Below, one piece after another: positions 56,603 to 63,505 of a stretch of DNA of 64,000 nucleotides. The stretch comes from Dysgonomonas sp. BGC7 (GTDB lineage: Bacteria; Bacteroidota; Bacteroidia; Bacteroidales; Dysgonomonadaceae): positions 186,001 to 250,000 of the forward strand of contig NZ_CVRP01000007.1 in assembly GCF_001261735.1 (NCBI RefSeq), written 5' to 3'. Under the pieces are notes generated by a model, which was not told the origin of the DNA, did no database searches, and worked only from the letters and a program-made list of their open reading frames with translations. The first letter of the stretch is position 1, and every line of letters begins with the position of its first letter. The translations under genes and the position numbers were made by a program.

Positions 56603-56620
56603 AATAATAAAATATATGGC

Positions 56621-56662
56621 AAGAGGCTGGATTATGAGAATCCAGCCTCTTGATATTTTTTC
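56621..56662 (+). terminator. Terminator after the lipocalin-like gene
   Basis: Perfect 13-base-pair stem AAGAGGCTGGATT / AATCCAGCCTCTT with a five-base loop, followed by a T-rich tail. Confidence 0.9.
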
Positions 56663-56889: not shown

Positions 56890-56897
56890 TATCTTTG
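56890..56897 (+). promoter_or_regulatory. -7 promoter element for the gldKLMN operon
   Basis: TATCTTTG matches TAnnTTTG, 40 bases before the gldK ATG, inside a very A/T-rich stretch. Confidence 0.65.
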
Positions 56898-56937: not shown

Positions 56938-59067
56938 ATGAACAAAAAGACTTTACTAACTTCACTGCTATTGCTCTGTGTGTCAATAGTATTTTATGCC
57001 CAGTCGGAAAGACCTGGGTCGTATTCAGTTCCTTCTCGAAACGAATACTTATTGAAAGATCCTCTCTGGTTTATTTCTGTTGGGTCTGGTGTCCAGACTT
57101 ATTTTGGCGAGGATGATAATGGTGTGGCCGGAAATCGTATTTCACTTTCCAGTAGGCTAACATATGCTCCAACTTTGACCATTGGTCGTCGTATGGGTAA
57201 CTTGGTAACCTTACGTCTCCAGTTTTCAGGAGGTTCTCTTCATGGTTTTAATGATGGTTGGAGTGGAACTTATTCCAGATGGTGGAAAAATGGTACTAAT
57301 GAAGCTAATCTGATAACAAAAGATCCATCTTGGGGATATATGGGATGGGTTGAAGGTGTTGATTATGTGTATGATGCAAAACGTGGTTGGCATCCTACTA
57401 AATGGAATGAAAACGAAAATTATTATATGCAACATCTTCGTTATTTCAGTGCTTCAGGAGATATATCTTTAAATCTGTTAAATTTGTTGCAAGGTTATAC
57501 TCCTAACAGAAAGTTTGAAATACATCCGTTTCTTGGAGTTGGTCTTTATCAGAGATTTGCTCATAGAGGAACTCTTAATAACACTTTCTTTGGAGCGAGT
57601 CTAGGTGGCCATATGGCATACTCTATCTTTAGAGATTTTCAAGTGTTTGTTGAAGGTAGAGGAGTGTTGATCAGTGACTCTTTTGATGGACAGAATGGAG
57701 ATATGAGTAATAATGGTATAGCTCAGGTTACTGCTGGTATTACCTATAAGTTTGGGCGTCCTAAATATATCGACCCTGCAATTGAAACTCGTCTGAATCT
57801 ACCGTATAATATAGCTCGTGGTTGTGATAATATGGTACTTGTTCCCGGAGGTAATATCGAAATGGGTACAGGTGTAGACCCTTTATGGGGAGATTCTGTT
57901 CCTCGCAAACTTGTTGCAGTAAGTCCTTTCTGGATGGATGAGACTGAAGTGACAAATAAACAATACAGAGAGTTCGTGTTTTGGGTAAGAGACTCTATTG
58001 TACGTGAAAGACTAGCCGATCCTTCATATGGAGGCGACCCTACATACAAAGTATTGGTACGACCTAATGAAGCATACAATCCGGTAGGACAACGGTTGAA
58101 TTGGCATAAACCTATTCCTTGGAAAAACCCTACTCAGAGAGAAGCTGCTGCTATTGCCAGTGTTGTTGGTGGAAATAATAAAGATGCAATTATAACATCT
58201 ACAATCAATTATAAATATGATTGGTTCGATTCGAAAAGCTATTATGCATTTTTAGCTAAAATGCGTGATGGTGAAGCTAAATCGATCGTGATAACAAAAG
58301 ATACTGCGTATGTAAATCTAAGAGGGGATATTGTTCGTGAAACTCTATCGAGAATATCTAAAGGAGATAAGGCAGACTTTACCAATACATACATCGTAAA
58401 TGTATATCCGGATGTAATGAGTTGGATGACAGATTTTGCTAATGCTAAGAGTGAGCAATATGTAGAACACTATTTCTCTTCAAAAGCATATGATAACTTC
58501 CCTGTGGTGGGTGTTACATGGGAGGCTGCTGATGCGTATTGCGCATGGCGTACAAAAAAATATATTGAGGATGGTAAATGCGGTTTAGTTGGTTTCGAAG
58601 GCTACCGTTTGCCAACAGAAGCAGAATGGGAATTTGCTGCAAGAAATGGACGCTCAGAGCTTGAATATCCATGGTATTCGGACGAAACTCATACAAGAGA
58701 TGGATTGGCTCATGCTAACTTCAGAGCATCTAAAGATCTTAAAGATCTTGTTTCTCCTGTGGCTTCTTTCTTGCCAAATCGATTTGGATTGTATGATATG
58801 GCCGGTAATGTTGCAGAATGGACTACAACAACATTTACTGAGTCTGTAGATCGTATGGCAGATGAAGCAAATCCTGACTTTAGCTATAGAGCAGTATTAT
58901 CAGATCCTGCAATATTGAAACGTAAAATAATAAAAGGAGGTTCATGGAAAGATGCAACTGTAAAATCAGGTGATCGTTCTGTAGAATTCCAAGATAAAGC
59001 CCGCTCTTTTATCGGTTTCAGATGTGTGAGATCGTGGGGCGTTGATGAAAAAGGTAGATTGAAATAA
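56938..59067 (+). CDS. gldK: GldK/PorK fused to an N-terminal outer-membrane beta-barrel
   Basis: 709 residues, much longer than the usual GldK/PorK lipoprotein (about 450-500). Residues 1-22 are a cleavable signal (FYA-QSER) with no lipobox at the cleavage site; the Cys at 14 lies inside the hydrophobic core. Residues about 41-273 are strand-rich with outer-membrane barrel features (WFISVGSGVQTYFGEDD; IHPFLGVGLYQRFAHR; ending QVTAGITYKFGRPKY). The GldK domain starts near 298 (MVLVPGGNIEMGTG, FWMDETEVTNKQYREF) and ends GFRCVRSW, a formylglycine-generating-enzyme-like fold. It would be the periplasmic ring subunit of the type IX secretion system, here with its own outer-membrane anchor in cis. 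First gene of gldKLMN. Confidence 0.93.
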   Translation: MNKKTLLTSLLLLCVSIVFYAQSERPGSYSVPSRNEYLLKDPLWFISVGSGVQTYFGEDDNGVAGNRISLSSRLTYAPTLTIGRRMGNLVTLRLQFSGGSLHGFNDGWSGTYSRWWKNGTNEANLITKDPSWGYMGWVEGVDYVYDAKRGWHPTKWNENENYYMQHLRYFSASGDISLNLLNLLQGYTPNRKFEIHPFLGVGLYQRFAHRGTLNNTFFGASLGGHMAYSIFRDFQVFVEGRGVLISDSFDGQNGDMSNNGIAQVTAGITYKFGRPKYIDPAIETRLNLPYNIARGCDNMVLVPGGNIEMGTGVDPLWGDSVPRKLVAVSPFWMDETEVTNKQYREFVFWVRDSIVRERLADPSYGGDPTYKVLVRPNEAYNPVGQRLNWHKPIPWKNPTQREAAAIASVVGGNNKDAIITSTINYKYDWFDSKSYYAFLAKMRDGEAKSIVITKDTAYVNLRGDIVRETLSRISKGDKADFTNTYIVNVYPDVMSWMTDFANAKSEQYVEHYFSSKAYDNFPVVGVTWEAADAYCAWRTKKYIEDGKCGLVGFEGYRLPTEAEWEFAARNGRSELEYPWYSDETHTRDGLAHANFRASKDLKDLVSPVASFLPNRFGLYDMAGNVAEWTTTTFTESVDRMADEANPDFSYRAVLSDPAILKRKIIKGGSWKDATVKSGDRSVEFQDKARSFIGFRCVRSWGVDEKGRLK

Positions 59068-59139: not shown

Positions 59140-60066
59140 ATGGGAAAAATGCATAATTTTAGACTATTCTTAGCCAGTAGAAAAGGGCAAATTTTATTTA
59201 ATGTCTTATATAGCTGGGGAGCTGCAGTTGTTATTGCAGGAGCAATGTGTAAAATTATGCATTTTAAAGGAGGCGATTATATCTTAATGGCAGGTATGAT
59301 AGTCGAAGTTCTGGTCTTTGTTGTTGCCGGATTCGACTATGCGTCTATTGGTAGTCTCGAGTCTGAAACTAATGGCGGTGTCATTGTAGGTAGTGGTAGT
59401 GCTATTGGAGGAGTTGATTCTTTAGAAGATATTAGTAATACTACATCTAAAGAGAGTAAGGTCAAAACTACGGGAGCATCTGGTCATGTTGTGGTTGTAG
59501 CCGGAGGAGGAAATGGCTCTTTTGGTGGATTGCAACAACAAGGAACTTCTGTTTCTGTCGGAGGCCAGCCTGCACCTTCAAATGTAGTTTCTTCCGGAAA
59601 CTCTTCTGTAGGAAATATAGCACCTTCTTCTTCTGGGAACTCGATAAATCCGGAATACGCACAAAGTTTATCTAATACTGCTCAGAATCTTGATGACTTT
59701 TCCAATACTATACATTCTTTGAATGAAGCGTCTCAAAAAATACTAGATGCCTATCGAAATGTTACGGATGCTAATGGGTTCGCTGATAATCTGGCTACAT
59801 TAAATCAAAATGTAAGTGGATTGAATGAGGTGTTCAGCGGTCAGCTACAAACTATTTCGGAACAAATGGCAGCCATCAGATATATAAATGATAGCTTGCA
59901 ACGGATGAAAAATCTGTACGATGGAGCTATTGGCGATAGTTATATGTTTAGAGAAGAATCTGCAAAAATGACAAAGCATATTGAATCATTGAATAATGTA
60001 TATGCGCGTCTTTTGCAGGCTATGACAACAAATAATAATAGCAATATGAACCAGAATAATTTCTGA
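59140..60066 (+). CDS. gldL: Type IX secretion inner-membrane motor protein GldL/PorL
   Basis: 308 residues. Two N-terminal membrane helices (about 18-38 and 45-65); the second carries Glu56 in MIVEVLVFVV, matching the membrane glutamate thought to be in the proton path of the GldLM motor. Then come a Gly/Ser-rich linker (about 75-165) and a C-terminal helical region with heptad-like pattern (about 170-300). It couples proton flow to type IX secretion and gliding together with GldM. A second in-frame ATG at residue 4 is possible. It lies 72 bases after gldK. Confidence 0.93.
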   Translation: MGKMHNFRLFLASRKGQILFNVLYSWGAAVVIAGAMCKIMHFKGGDYILMAGMIVEVLVFVVAGFDYASIGSLESETNGGVIVGSGSAIGGVDSLEDISNTTSKESKVKTTGASGHVVVVAGGGNGSFGGLQQQGTSVSVGGQPAPSNVVSSGNSSVGNIAPSSSGNSINPEYAQSLSNTAQNLDDFSNTIHSLNEASQKILDAYRNVTDANGFADNLATLNQNVSGLNEVFSGQLQTISEQMAAIRYINDSLQRMKNLYDGAIGDSYMFREESAKMTKHIESLNNVYARLLQAMTTNNNSNMNQNNF

Positions 60067-60100: not shown

Positions 60101-61672
60101 ATGGCATTAACTAAAGGGCAACAAACGCGACAGAAGATGATAAATCTGATGTATCTCGTTTTTATAGCGATGCTAGCCCTGAATATATCGACAGAAGTAC
60201 TTGATGGTTTTGTATTGATGAATGACAATCTTCAGGAATCTATTAAAGTTGCTGAGGAAAGAAATCGTAAAATATATTCTGAAATAGATGCTGCATATGC
60301 AGCTAATTCTGAGAAAGCAGAGAAGTCTTTTATTACGGCACAGGGAGTTAAACTTCAAACAGATTCCTTATTTGATTTTGTTCAATCATTGAAATTGCAA
60401 ATTGCAAAGGAATCGGATGGAGCTGATGCAGATGTAAATAATTTAGAGTCTAAAGATAATCTAGATGCTGCTTCTGAAGTTATGCTATCTCCTATCGGAG
60501 GAAAGGGGAATGAGCTGAAAAGAAGATTGGATCAGTACCGCGAGAGTGTTGTTGGGCTGATTAATGATGAGGAAAAGAAGGAAGTGGTAAGAAGAACCCT
60601 TTCTACTGAACCATCGGAAAGAGCAAAAAAAGATAGAAAAAACTGGCTTCAGGCTTCTTTCGAAAAAATGCCAAGTATAGCAGCTGTTACTTTGTTGTCC
60701 GAATTGCAGGTGAATATAAGACAGGCAGAAGGCGAAGTCCTCAATGTTGTTTCTCAAAATATAGATTTAGAGGATATCAGGGTGAATGAACTGAGTGCAT
60801 TTGTTATTCCTCAATCAAATATGGTGATGAGAGGAACTACTTATAAAGCTAATATAATATTGGCGGCAGTAGATACAACTCAGCGTCCTAAGATAGTAAT
60901 AGATGGTAAAGAGTTACCAACCGCAAATAACGGTTTGTATGAGCGACCTGCCGGAGTTATTGGAGCTAATTCGTTTAGTGGCTTTATAGAACTAATAGAT
61001 AGAATGGGAAGGCCTCTACGTCGTGAATTTACACAGAAATACACCGTAATGGAACCTATGGCTACTATTGCGCCATTATTGATGGATGTGCTTTATGCAG
61101 GTATTGACAATCCAATTAGCATATCAGTTCCGGGAGTTGCTACAAATGATGTAACTGCCCGAGCAATGGAAGGCGGTACTTTAGTTCAAGGCTCAAATGG
61201 TCAATGGATTGCTAAACCTTCAGCTTCCAATATTGGTAAGAAGTTTATTATAGCTGTATCTGCTAATGTAAATGGAGCTACGCAGCAAATAGCATCTAAA
61301 GAATTTAGAATACGTGCATTGCCAGAGCCGTTACCATATATAGAATATAAAGATCATAATGGAAATACACGTATCTTTAGAAAAGGCTCTTTGGCCAGAG
61401 CAGTTATATTAAGTGCAACTGGAATTAAGGCATCTATTGATGATGGTATATTAAATATTCCTTTCAATGTACTTAGTTTTAGAACGATGGCGATAGATGC
61501 TATGGGGAATGTTAGTCCTGAGATGTCGAACGGAGCAAACTTTTCGTCTCGTCAGATGGAACAAATCCGTCGGATGAATAGAGGTACACAGTTCTTTATT
61601 ACTAGTATAAAGGTGAAAGGGCCGGATGGAATAGACCGAGAAGTTTATCCAATGGAAGTAAGAATTAATTAA
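60101..61672 (+). CDS. gldM: Type IX secretion periplasmic shaft protein GldM/PorM
   Basis: 523 residues. The single N-terminal membrane helix (about 14-34; MINLMYLVFIAMLALN) inserts into GldL, followed by a long periplasmic region of D1-D4-type domains, typical of GldM, ending near VYPMEVRIN. It transmits motor rotation or force across the periplasm to the GldK-GldN ring. It lies 34 bases after gldL and 16 before gldN. Confidence 0.95.
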   Translation: MALTKGQQTRQKMINLMYLVFIAMLALNISTEVLDGFVLMNDNLQESIKVAEERNRKIYSEIDAAYAANSEKAEKSFITAQGVKLQTDSLFDFVQSLKLQIAKESDGADADVNNLESKDNLDAASEVMLSPIGGKGNELKRRLDQYRESVVGLINDEEKKEVVRRTLSTEPSERAKKDRKNWLQASFEKMPSIAAVTLLSELQVNIRQAEGEVLNVVSQNIDLEDIRVNELSAFVIPQSNMVMRGTTYKANIILAAVDTTQRPKIVIDGKELPTANNGLYERPAGVIGANSFSGFIELIDRMGRPLRREFTQKYTVMEPMATIAPLLMDVLYAGIDNPISISVPGVATNDVTARAMEGGTLVQGSNGQWIAKPSASNIGKKFIIAVSANVNGATQQIASKEFRIRALPEPLPYIEYKDHNGNTRIFRKGSLARAVILSATGIKASIDDGILNIPFNVLSFRTMAIDAMGNVSPEMSNGANFSSRQMEQIRRMNRGTQFFITSIKVKGPDGIDREVYPMEVRIN

Positions 61673-61688
61673 CACAAAAATAAGTATT

Positions 61689-62549
61689 ATGAAATATTTG
61701 ATTTCATTAATTTTAGGCGGTTTTTTTCTAGCGAGTCCGCTTATTGCACAAAACGCAGCAAATAATGGACCCAGAATATTGGATCAGGTAGATGTTGTAA
61801 CAAATACAGCCGAAGATGCAGCAACAGACATATCTTCGCGCGAACTTTTTGTTATGGAGAACTCTATGAATGATTATTCATCAACGATATGGTCTAGAGA
61901 GATATATCGTCAGATAGCTGCGGATACAGAAGGTAATGAAACATTTTTTTATCCGGCTAAGTCAACGGACAATAGAGTGAATTTATTCTCTTTATTAATA
62001 AATCTTATAAGTACTAATACCGTGAAAGCGTATGAGTATGGTGCTACTCCGGAGATTACTGATAGTAAAGCTTTAGATGCTAAGAAAGTCTTGTATGACA
62101 ATATGATTACTCCTGATGGGGAAAGCACTAAATATAACTTGGAGAATGTTCCCTCTGACAAAATATCTCACTACTTGGTAAAGGAAAGATGGTATTTCGA
62201 TATAAAGACTTTTAAAGGAGATGTAAGAGTTACTCACATTTGTCCGGTATTGTTAGAAAAAGGTAAATACTATCCTTTGTTTTGGGTTGCATTTGATGAT
62301 GTGAGTGTATATTTGGCCAGAGCTAAATCTCCTGTTGCAGTTGCTAATGTAACACCGGTTTTAAGTAATGCTTCTATATTCGACATCATAAGAAATAGAT
62401 GGTACAGAGGATGTATATATCAAGTTGGTTTGAGACAATTGTCTCACTACTTCCCTGAAATGAAAGATCTTATCAAAGAACGTCAGCGTATAGAAAACGA
62501 GTTGGATTATATTCAGGCAAAGTTCTACGCAGCAGAAAGAAGACGATAA
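61689..62549 (+). CDS. gldN: Type IX secretion ring protein GldN/PorN
   Basis: 286 residues with a signal peptide (SPLIA-QNAA). Family features include SSTIWSREIYRQIA, ISHYLVKERWYFD and RWYRGCIYQVGLRQLSHYFPEM. It forms the periplasmic ring with GldK. It is the last gene of gldKLMN, followed by a strong terminator. Confidence 0.95.
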   Translation: MKYLISLILGGFFLASPLIAQNAANNGPRILDQVDVVTNTAEDAATDISSRELFVMENSMNDYSSTIWSREIYRQIAADTEGNETFFYPAKSTDNRVNLFSLLINLISTNTVKAYEYGATPEITDSKALDAKKVLYDNMITPDGESTKYNLENVPSDKISHYLVKERWYFDIKTFKGDVRVTHICPVLLEKGKYYPLFWVAFDDVSVYLARAKSPVAVANVTPVLSNASIFDIIRNRWYRGCIYQVGLRQLSHYFPEMKDLIKERQRIENELDYIQAKFYAAERRR

Positions 62550-62572: not shown

Positions 62573-62611
62573 AAAGAAGACAGAGATATATTATCTCTGT
62601 CTTCTTTGTTT
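62573..62611 (+). terminator. Terminator after gldN
   Basis: Stem of about 16 base pairs (AAAGAAGACAGAGATA / TATCTCTGTCTTCTTT) with a three-base loop, followed by GTTTG. Confidence 0.85.
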
Positions 62612-62774
62612 GTGTAATGAGTTGAAATAGAATTGTTATGGACTCTATTTCTTTCAAAGAAAATACAGATGTATTAATTATAATCCTTAATGTGATCTGG
62701 GTGACTGTTGTTGGCATTTAATCTGCGAATGACATATTGTGTCTTGATTCTTTTAATAGTATTTTGTAGGGTAT

Positions 62775-62810
62775 AAAAAAGGCTTTAATAGATCTATTAA
62801 AGCCTTTTTT
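62775..62810. terminator. Bidirectional terminator, perfect 36-base palindrome
   Basis: AAAAAAGGCTTTAATAGA is followed immediately by its exact reverse complement. It ends the OmpA-domain gene (minus strand) and can also stop read-through from gldN. Confidence 0.9.
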
Positions 62811-62827
62811 ATGTAGGTTTATTCTTG

Positions 62828-63505
62828 TTATGGATTGATCAGGAAGAGTACTGCACGATTCTTGTCATTCTCTAATTGGAATGGCTGTAGTCCGTCTCCT
62901 TTCCAGTTTACTGATATTCTGTTTTTGGCAATCCCATATTTTGTTTCCATAGCTTTAGCTACAGCTTCAGACCTATTCTTAGACAATTTTAGATTTATAG
63001 CAGCATTACCTGTTTTTTTGTCTGCATAACCTGTAACAACCACAGTTGCCTCAGGATTCTTATTAAGATGATCTACCGCCAATTCTATTTTGGCCCATTC
63101 AGCCTGATCTATTACCCATTTGTTTATACGGAAGAAAACAGGATCAGGTAAGAAAAACGGATCTTTCTTAATGATTGGTTTTTCTTCAGGCTTAGCATCT
63201 ATAGGCCTTCTTGTAGGCTCATCTATCTTTTTACTCTCTGCCTGAGGTGCCGGAGCTAAAATGTCTGGGCAATCATACATTTTTCTGCGTTTAGCCATTT
63301 CTGATTGGCTTACACTAAGCTGCTGAGCGCTTCTTTTCACTACGATGATTTCTTCTCTGCTGTTGAGTTGGAGTAATACAGAGTCTCTTACAGATTCACA
63401 AGCACAAGGGTCAACCTTTTTTTCTGTCGTGACTCTGTTTTGTGCGTTTAGTGAAAGTGATAATACTATTAAAAGTATTGGTAGTAATATAAATCTCATT
63501 TTCAT
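62828..63505 (-). CDS. Periplasmic OmpA C-terminal domain protein, no barrel
   Basis: 225 residues. The signal peptide ends near LNA-QNRV. Two Cys follow the start of the mature chain (DPCACES). A Pro/Lys/Glu-rich linker (about 85-120) leads to an OmpA-like peptidoglycan-binding domain (about 122-225): PVFFRINKWVIDQAEWAKIE, GYADKKTGNAAINLKLSKNR, with the Asp and Arg that contact peptidoglycan conserved. No beta-barrel domain is present. It is convergent with gldKLMN; type IX systems use OmpA-like peptidoglycan-binding partners such as PorE, so a link is possible but unproved. Confidence 0.9.
   Translation of the reverse strand: MKMRFILLPILLIVLSLSLNAQNRVTTEKKVDPCACESVRDSVLLQLNSREEIIVVKRSAQQLSVSQSEMAKRRKMYDCPDILAPAPQAESKKIDEPTRRPIDAKPEEKPIIKKDPFFLPDPVFFRINKWVIDQAEWAKIELAVDHLNKNPEATVVVTGYADKKTGNAAINLKLSKNRSEAVAKAMETKYGIAKNRISVNWKGDGLQPFQLENDKNRAVLFLINP

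Follow-up and report, generated by a model that had tools for sequence, protein, structure and literature searches.

The window, a stretch of 64,000 nucleotides from Dysgonomonas sp. BGC7, carries a four-gene operon whose first gene joins a predicted outer-membrane barrel to a GldK domain. The features of this locus are as follows, in window positions.

56620..56652, both strands: strong terminator-like hairpin (14-bp stem and T tail) upstream of the operon, from a hairpin scan
56890..56897, plus strand: TATCTTTG, resembling a Bacteroidota -7 promoter element, from sequence reading
56938..59067, plus strand: barrel-GldK fusion of 709 amino acids, a single unbroken reading frame of 709 codons
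56938..57003, plus strand: signal peptide, residues 1-22, ending in YAQ, without a lipobox by eye
57067..57753, plus strand: predicted eight-stranded OmpA-type outer-membrane barrel, residues 44-272 (AlphaFold2 and Foldseek)
57754..57828, plus strand: linker, residues 273-297, with Cys296 (57823-57825)
57829..59034, plus strand: GldK/PorK domain (FGE-like fold family), residues 298-699 (TIGR03525)
58579..58581, plus strand: Cys548 of the GldK domain, co-occurring with linker Cys296
58705..58707, plus strand: Leu590, in the alignment column of the PorG-reactive cysteine (PorK Cys356, GldK Cys343)
59140..60066, plus strand: gldL, motor (TIGR03513)
60101..61672, plus strand: gldM, motor, the genome's only gene to pass the family cut-off (TIGR03517)
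61689..62549, plus strand: gldN', divergent ring-partner paralogue (TIGR03523, 92.3 bits)
62573..62607, minus strand: terminator-like hairpin fitting the convergent ompA-like gene, from the hairpin scan
62771..62814, plus strand: terminator-like 20-bp stem fitting the end of the fused operon, from the hairpin scan
62828..63505, minus strand: stand-alone OmpA C-terminal-domain protein of 225 amino acids, convergent with the operon (PF00691)

The fused gene lies in an operon with gldL, gldM and a gldN, as looked for in a member of the GldK family, and the intergenic gaps are 72, 34 and 16 bases. The hairpin scan returned nine terminator-like hairpins in the region covered, against 2.7 expected. 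The element TATCTTTG is a candidate promoter element, likened to the Bacteroidota -7 motif TAnnTTTG. The window was also searched for RNA families, tRNAs and tandem repeats, without a match. A pyruvate:ferredoxin oxidoreductase gene lies ahead of the fused operon in several genomes, though not in the window, and ahead of the gldLM pair in G016 (L048, L050-L055, L042).

The original prediction described a single polypeptide with a signal peptide lacking a lipobox, a barrel-like N-terminal region and a full GldK domain; the open reading frame, TIGR03525 and the structural searches bear this out. The NCBIfam model TIGR03525 (GldK/PorK) scores 377.4 bits over residues 298-699, its curated cut-off being 350, and the GldK domain matches the PorK chains of PDB entries 9myj, 9p6h, 9ots and 9mzu with E-values of 4e-107 to 5e-107. 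Since the TIGR03525 match begins at profile position 35, the fused protein lacks the lipoprotein leader and the beginning of GldK. The last two residues of the signal peptide, A21 and Q22, are invariant in an alignment of the fused proteins with their OmpA-type barrel relatives. A lipobox cysteine is normally preceded by G, A or S. Cys14, present in 20 of 21 fused proteins, lies in the hydrophobic core after L, I, V, M or F, a context that by eye does not appear to fit a lipobox. Translation of a lipoprotein from an internal start near residue 295 is unlikely: the 39 residues before Cys296 contain no methionine, and 4 of 20 fused proteins do not have this cysteine.

No Pfam or NCBIfam model matched residues 1-294 at E<=1, and the 33 sequences of the barrel alignment, scanned singly, gave weak generic matches only (OMP_b-brl in 1/33, Legionella_OMP in 1/33 and an NCBIfam barrel model in 2/33). 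AlphaFold2, run on residues 1-290 with 33 alignment rows, returned eight long strands (44-56, 75-85, 90-105, 163-178, 193-207, 215-231, 234-245 and 259-272) with a pLDDT of 78.7 and a pTM of 0.71. The top Foldseek match of this model in the PDB is the OmpA barrel 9fzc (E 8e-8; query TM-score 0.45, target TM-score 0.72). Ail, NspA, OmpX, OprF and OmpW are also within the best 50, together with larger barrels at low TM-score. Residues 44-272 are predicted to form a closed eight-stranded outer-membrane barrel, where the original prediction had placed a barrel-like region. As in the OmpA family, the predicted barrel is N-terminal; the PF00691 domain is absent from the same chain and is encoded apart, at 62828-63505. 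The full-length AlphaFold2 model is poor (pLDDT 46.1, with 17 similar rows) and therefore does not predict the relative placement of the barrel and the GldK domain.

Both halves of the protein are under purifying selection, with dN/dS at 0.03-0.11 overall wherever dS is unsaturated: the GldK half gives 0.03-0.06 in five of five pairs, and the barrel 0.04-0.11 in three of five, the remaining two having saturated dS. Conservation extends over the linker and the first residues of the GldK domain (IDPA.E.RL..PYNIAR). Moreover, Cys296 and Cys548 are both present in 16 of 20 fused proteins and both absent from the other four, neither occurring singly. Such a pattern is expected of a disulfide stapling the linker, and is suggestive only, as each cysteine changes three times on the tree, which leaves at most three independent pairs and a sign test that is not significant. 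The linker (273-297) could instead be cut after export, leaving a barrel and a soluble GldK domain and no working fusion; with the linker and domain start conserved, and a cysteine pair able to staple the linker in 16 of 20 proteins, we consider this very unlikely. The fused GldKs of L025 (G008) and L072:10001-12037, both of 678 amino acids, seem to be missing an internal segment of the GldK domain; that of G008 matches positions 1-357 and 414-707 in one frame.

How common the fusion is among relatives had been left aside in the original prediction, and can be answered in part: it is a genus-wide trait that, among the matches listed, was seen in none of the other genera sampled. Among the matches listed, it occurs in 21 of 25 genomes of the window's genus, mostly named Dysgonomonas and including the single-contig genome G003; chance and misassembly were rejected on this ground and on the dN/dS values above. 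The genomes of the genus without it, among the same matches, are G001 (51% complete), G004 (71%), G006 and G016. The order barrel-gldK, gldL, gldM, gldN' recurs in all 11 genomes where the whole operon was retrieved and in 17 of 18 fused loci of named genomes, the remaining one being cut by a contig end. These 18 are among 33 loci that the barrel alignment picked out when named genomes were scanned; they include D. mossii DSM 22836, D. hofstadii, further Dysgonomonas and several metagenome-assembled genomes or strains titled Prevotella sp. At the other 15 loci the barrel is on a different protein, with an OmpA domain in 14 and a contig end cutting the last. D. capnocytophagoides, D. macrotermitis and D. 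alginatilytica appear in the scan with barrel-OmpA proteins only. NCBI's Dysgonomonas takes in more than the genus of the window.

In a sample of Bacteroidales, GldK exceeds the cut-off in 129 of 139 genomes, and the fused form is found only in the two sampled genomes of the window's genus (among the matches listed); in a sample of the phylum Bacteroidota, GldK is present in 37 of 148 genomes and fused in the window's genome only. In either sample a fusion whose GldK part fell below the thresholds would escape. The fused form has about 700 residues, whereas in the Bacteroidales sample most conventional GldK frames among the matches listed measure 440-560. A 685-aa GldK frame in G217 was discarded as a second fusion: its 678-aa open reading frame has a lipobox-like start and an internal insertion, and keeps the reactive cysteine. 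Among the matches listed, titles and abstracts of open-licence PMC papers name no GldK-barrel fusion; in the available part of PMC12421860, 'fusion' concerns tags and cloning only.

Where does the barrel come from? Its relatives are the N-terminal domains of OmpA-type proteins, to which it shows 28-41% identity within the 33-row barrel alignment and 36-38% for three OmpA-type barrels in another alignment (the class of L045:4253-5680). Complete proteins with this barrel and an OmpA domain occur in G006, in G029 and in G036, a genome of another genus that also has an ordinary porP-gldK-gldL-gldM-gldN operon; none occurs in the fused genomes among the matches listed, best first. Orthologues of the orphan OmpA-domain protein at 62828-63505 are present in 19 of 21 fused genomes and in none of the four genus genomes without the fusion, a match in G004 being a contig-end fragment closer to another OmpA protein. 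The orphan was not found in G021 and G023, the most divergent fused genomes. Read as a correlation only, this looks like an OmpA protein that was taken apart, with one half placed on GldK.

The same distribution could also mean that barrel-GldK and the orphan (whose window copy matches PF00691) form a static anchor, tying part of the ring or motor to the outer membrane and the peptidoglycan without moving, much as the halves of one ancestral OmpA protein would have done. We regard this as unlikely. The orphan is missing from the two genomes just named; in 10 of 19 genomes the conventional gldK is less than 10 kb away from it, and it adjoins the fused operon in the window only, out of 11 fused operons read; and PorE, the known peptidoglycan link, is found in every genome of the genus (25/25). 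The window's orphan has a Cys-Ala-Cys near its N-terminus, and a C-x-C or C-x-x-C pair is present in 9 of 19 orthologues, while a later cysteine, within C-P-D, is found in 19 of 19. Two further proteins were seen: another OmpA-type protein of 389 amino acids with a shorter barrel (L005:4429-5598), and, in G006, a protein of 663 amino acids that has this type of barrel and, towards the C-terminus, weak matches to OmpA and TPR models (L039:4959-6950).

The fusion is not the sole GldK of the cell: a conventional lipoprotein GldK is encoded in the same genome (L004:7138-8628), between porP and a second gldN. This porP-gldK-gldN locus (L004:6150-9677) has a lipobox-like FVSC in its gldK and lacks gldL and gldM, no gldL being found beside it. 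It starts about 6 kb past the fused operon, and its gldK starts about 11 kb past the fused gene. The remark that no porP precedes gldK thus holds at the fused locus, and not at this neighbouring one. The two GldKs of the window's genome are 48% identical.

The arrangement porP-gldK-gldN without gldL or gldM was found in 15 of 15 genus genomes read, whereas all 10 genomes read from elsewhere in the family and order have gldK, gldL, gldM and gldN together (the locus in G032 starts at a contig end). Among the matches listed, 20 of 21 fused genomes have a conventional GldK, the exception being G007, 88% complete. Both gldN and gldN' are present in 19 of 21 (two genes in the window's genome; one each in G007 and G012), gldN' being over the family cut-off in 13 and below it in 7. 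Against these two K/N pairs, 20 of 21 fused genomes have a single gldM that passes the cut-off, and G012 has none. Weak, partial matches to the GldM C-terminus, below the cut-off, were seen in G000, G015, G020 and G024; that of G000 (C10:433107-433622) resembles only positions 330-512. SprA (25/25 genus genomes), PorE and the DUF6089 protein, which we take to be PorG (24/25), are each single apart from fragments.

G006 and G016, without the fusion, keep porP-gldK-gldN and carry gldLM alone elsewhere in the genome; they also have SprA and, among the matches listed, 3 and 8 CTD cargo tails, respectively. The fusion is therefore not needed for the type IX gene set: as judged from gene content, the conventional ring and motor are the whole set there. 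By extension, the motor of the fused genomes most likely serves both rings. One might still suppose that barrel-GldK, GldN' and the motor form a machine outside type IX secretion, moving surface proteins for instance. The absence of the fusion from G006 and G016 would fit, as would the small number of CTD cargo tails (3 to 9 in genus genomes at least 90% complete, among the matches listed). We hold this to be improbable, as in G006 and G016 these motor genes are retained although the ring genes are all conventional, and a casual reading of neighbours noticed no surface-partner gene in common beside the fused operons.

In trees, long branches (1.74 and 1.29, respectively, each with 100/100 support) separate the 13 fused GldKs and the 11 GldN' sequences from their conventional sisters. 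GldM of the genus forms one clade that includes G006 and G016; a search of the loci of these two genomes for traces of barrel-gldK or gldN' found none (best E 0.5). The tree being unrooted, the long fused-GldK branch may reflect an ancient duplication or fast change, both of which fit.

The strongest clue concerns the joint with PorG. According to Liu et al. (Nat Commun 2025, PMC12635249), Cys343 of F. johnsoniae GldK, equivalent to PorK Cys356, bonds the C-tail cysteine of PorG and of SprF and is required for type IX export; in PorK this cysteine sits in an Arg-Gly-Cys-Phe loop on the membrane side of the ring, at the inner rim. We compared this column in 46 whole conventional GldKs from 45 genomes and in 20 fused ones, the G012 gene stopping at a contig end before it. 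It is leucine in 20 of 20 fused proteins and cysteine in 45 of 46 conventional ones. In the window's genome, the loop reads KACFMANF in the conventional GldK and DGLAHANF, followed by a five-column gap, in the fused one. The lipid-bearing cysteine is likewise present in 46 of 46 conventional proteins, and its column has a cysteine in 0 of 21 fused proteins, aligned from residue 271 on. Two other cysteine columns, taken as a disulfide of the GldK fold, are kept in 20 of 20 fused proteins and in 35 and 43 of 46 conventional ones.

A separate PorG is retained. The window's genome has one DUF6089 protein, ending in a Cys-Pro-Cys tail; all 20 genomes read, of which 15 belong to the window's genus, have a tail cysteine, which fits the description of PorG in PMC12635249. 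The tail is C-P-C in 12 of the 15 genus genomes and C-x-x-C in G006, G016 and G023 (L114-L127, L132). With leucine in the reactive column of fused GldK and the PorG tail cysteine kept, PorG would be expected, within one cell, to form its bond with the conventional GldK and not with barrel-GldK. The barrel itself was rejected as a PorG: the domain search gave no Pfam match for residues 1-294, PF19573 included; hhalign against the PorG of the same genome returned a probability of 27%; and the C-tail cysteine that follows the barrel in PorG has no counterpart, since the fused barrel runs into the GldK domain and Cys296 is absent from 4 of 20 proteins. Of the proposal that the fusion replaces the lipid anchor and perhaps PorG, the first part stands, the fused protein having no lipid anchor. 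The second is not supported, given the separate PorG and a barrel that resembles OmpA-family barrels (28-41% identity) and not PorG. The idea that a PorG-type mount is replaced nevertheless gains support in a new form, as this paralogue has lost the PorG-bonding cysteine column.

We think it more likely than not that barrel-GldK is a paralogous track subunit of type IX secretion, its outer-membrane mount encoded in cis, working beside the conventional ring and sharing its motor. This reading draws on the barrel in place of the lipoprotein leader, the leucine in place of the reactive cysteine, the conventional set kept along with PorG, PorE and SprA, and the one full-length gldM. The barrel would insert in the outer membrane. 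The GldK domain would pack below it with GldN', and perhaps with GldK and GldN, into a ring or a section of track, and GldL-GldM would drive it, the barrel being moved through the membrane by a peptide bond and not by the PorG disulfide. Barrel-GldK would act beside the lipid-anchored ring, not instead of it. The cysteine loss could also follow from a change of function, and at 48% identity the fused GldK may not co-assemble with its sister.

Are barrel-GldK units mixed into the conventional ring, or do they build a second one? A few barrel-GldK/GldN' units within the conventional ring could serve as ready-made handles, taking PorG's role in cis. That two K/N pairs occur with a single full-length gldM and a single SprA would agree with this, as would the large molar excess of GldK over PorG reported in PMC12635249. 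The strong divergence of fused GldK and GldN' (the branches given above) suits a self-contained partner pair better, and PorG is retained; we regard this mixed arrangement as rather unlikely. A second, all-barrel track, in which every GldK of a ring of about 33 units would have its own barrel, with no lipid anchor and no disulfide, is a tentative idea of similar standing. An eight-stranded barrel is roughly 25-30 A wide. From the published ring (33 units, 380-540 A) we compute a spacing per subunit of 36 A at the inner rim, 44 A at mid-wall and up to 51 A, so that a barrel on every subunit is sterically possible. If this were true, the motor would turn a near-continuous ring of barrels inside the membrane.

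The probable cis-mounted subunit can be set against known systems. Like PorK/GldK (TIGR03525; PDB 9mzu, 9ots, 9myj), it has a GldK domain over the cut-off (298-699) and an operon with gldL, gldM and gldN; unlike them, it has no lipobox and no PorG-reactive cysteine, and the barrel replaces the first 34 profile positions. As with PorG (DUF6089, PF19573), an eight-stranded barrel is covalently joined to GldK; here, however, the joint is the backbone and not a disulfide, and the barrel is of another family, N-terminal and without a C-tail cysteine. With OmpA-family proteins (N-terminal barrel and PF00691, for example L045:4253-5680) it shares barrel sequence and fold, but GldK stands where the OmpA domain would, and the OmpA domain is a separate protein. 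SprF, disulfide-bonded to GldK in gliding bacteria according to PMC12635249, is also an outer-membrane protein mounted covalently on the track; from that published description, it differs in being a separate chain, mounted by a disulfide, in gliding.

The same paper, from late 2025, reports that outer-membrane proteins are held by disulfide bonds to a moving track, which pulls them along in gliding and in type IX secretion. Barrel-GldK looks like a natural covalent fusion of such track partners from which the bonding cysteine has gone, and its sequence suggests that a connection ordinarily built from a lipid and a disulfide is here fixed within a single polypeptide. It may serve as a test case for whether the bond is a mechanical tether only, which a fusion can replace, or has to be made and broken. 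A cell with ring genes of two kinds and one motor also raises the question of how the motor chooses its ring.

A link between this barrel type and GldK also appears outside the genus. In G038, from another Bacteroidales family, a homologous barrel of 240 amino acids without a C-tail cysteine is encoded between porP and gldK (L108:8439-9161, minus strand), and hhalign relates it to the fused barrel with a probability of 98.8% (E 6e-17). Twenty other gldK loci read have no such barrel, porP lying directly upstream in 19. This one independent case supports, without proving, a working link of this barrel type with GldK. Finally, G104 has two conventional GldKs flanking gldL-gldM-gldN (L165:2348-8630, in the order P-K-L-M-N-K), and the porP-adjacent one of the two is the sole conventional exception at the reactive-cysteine column.
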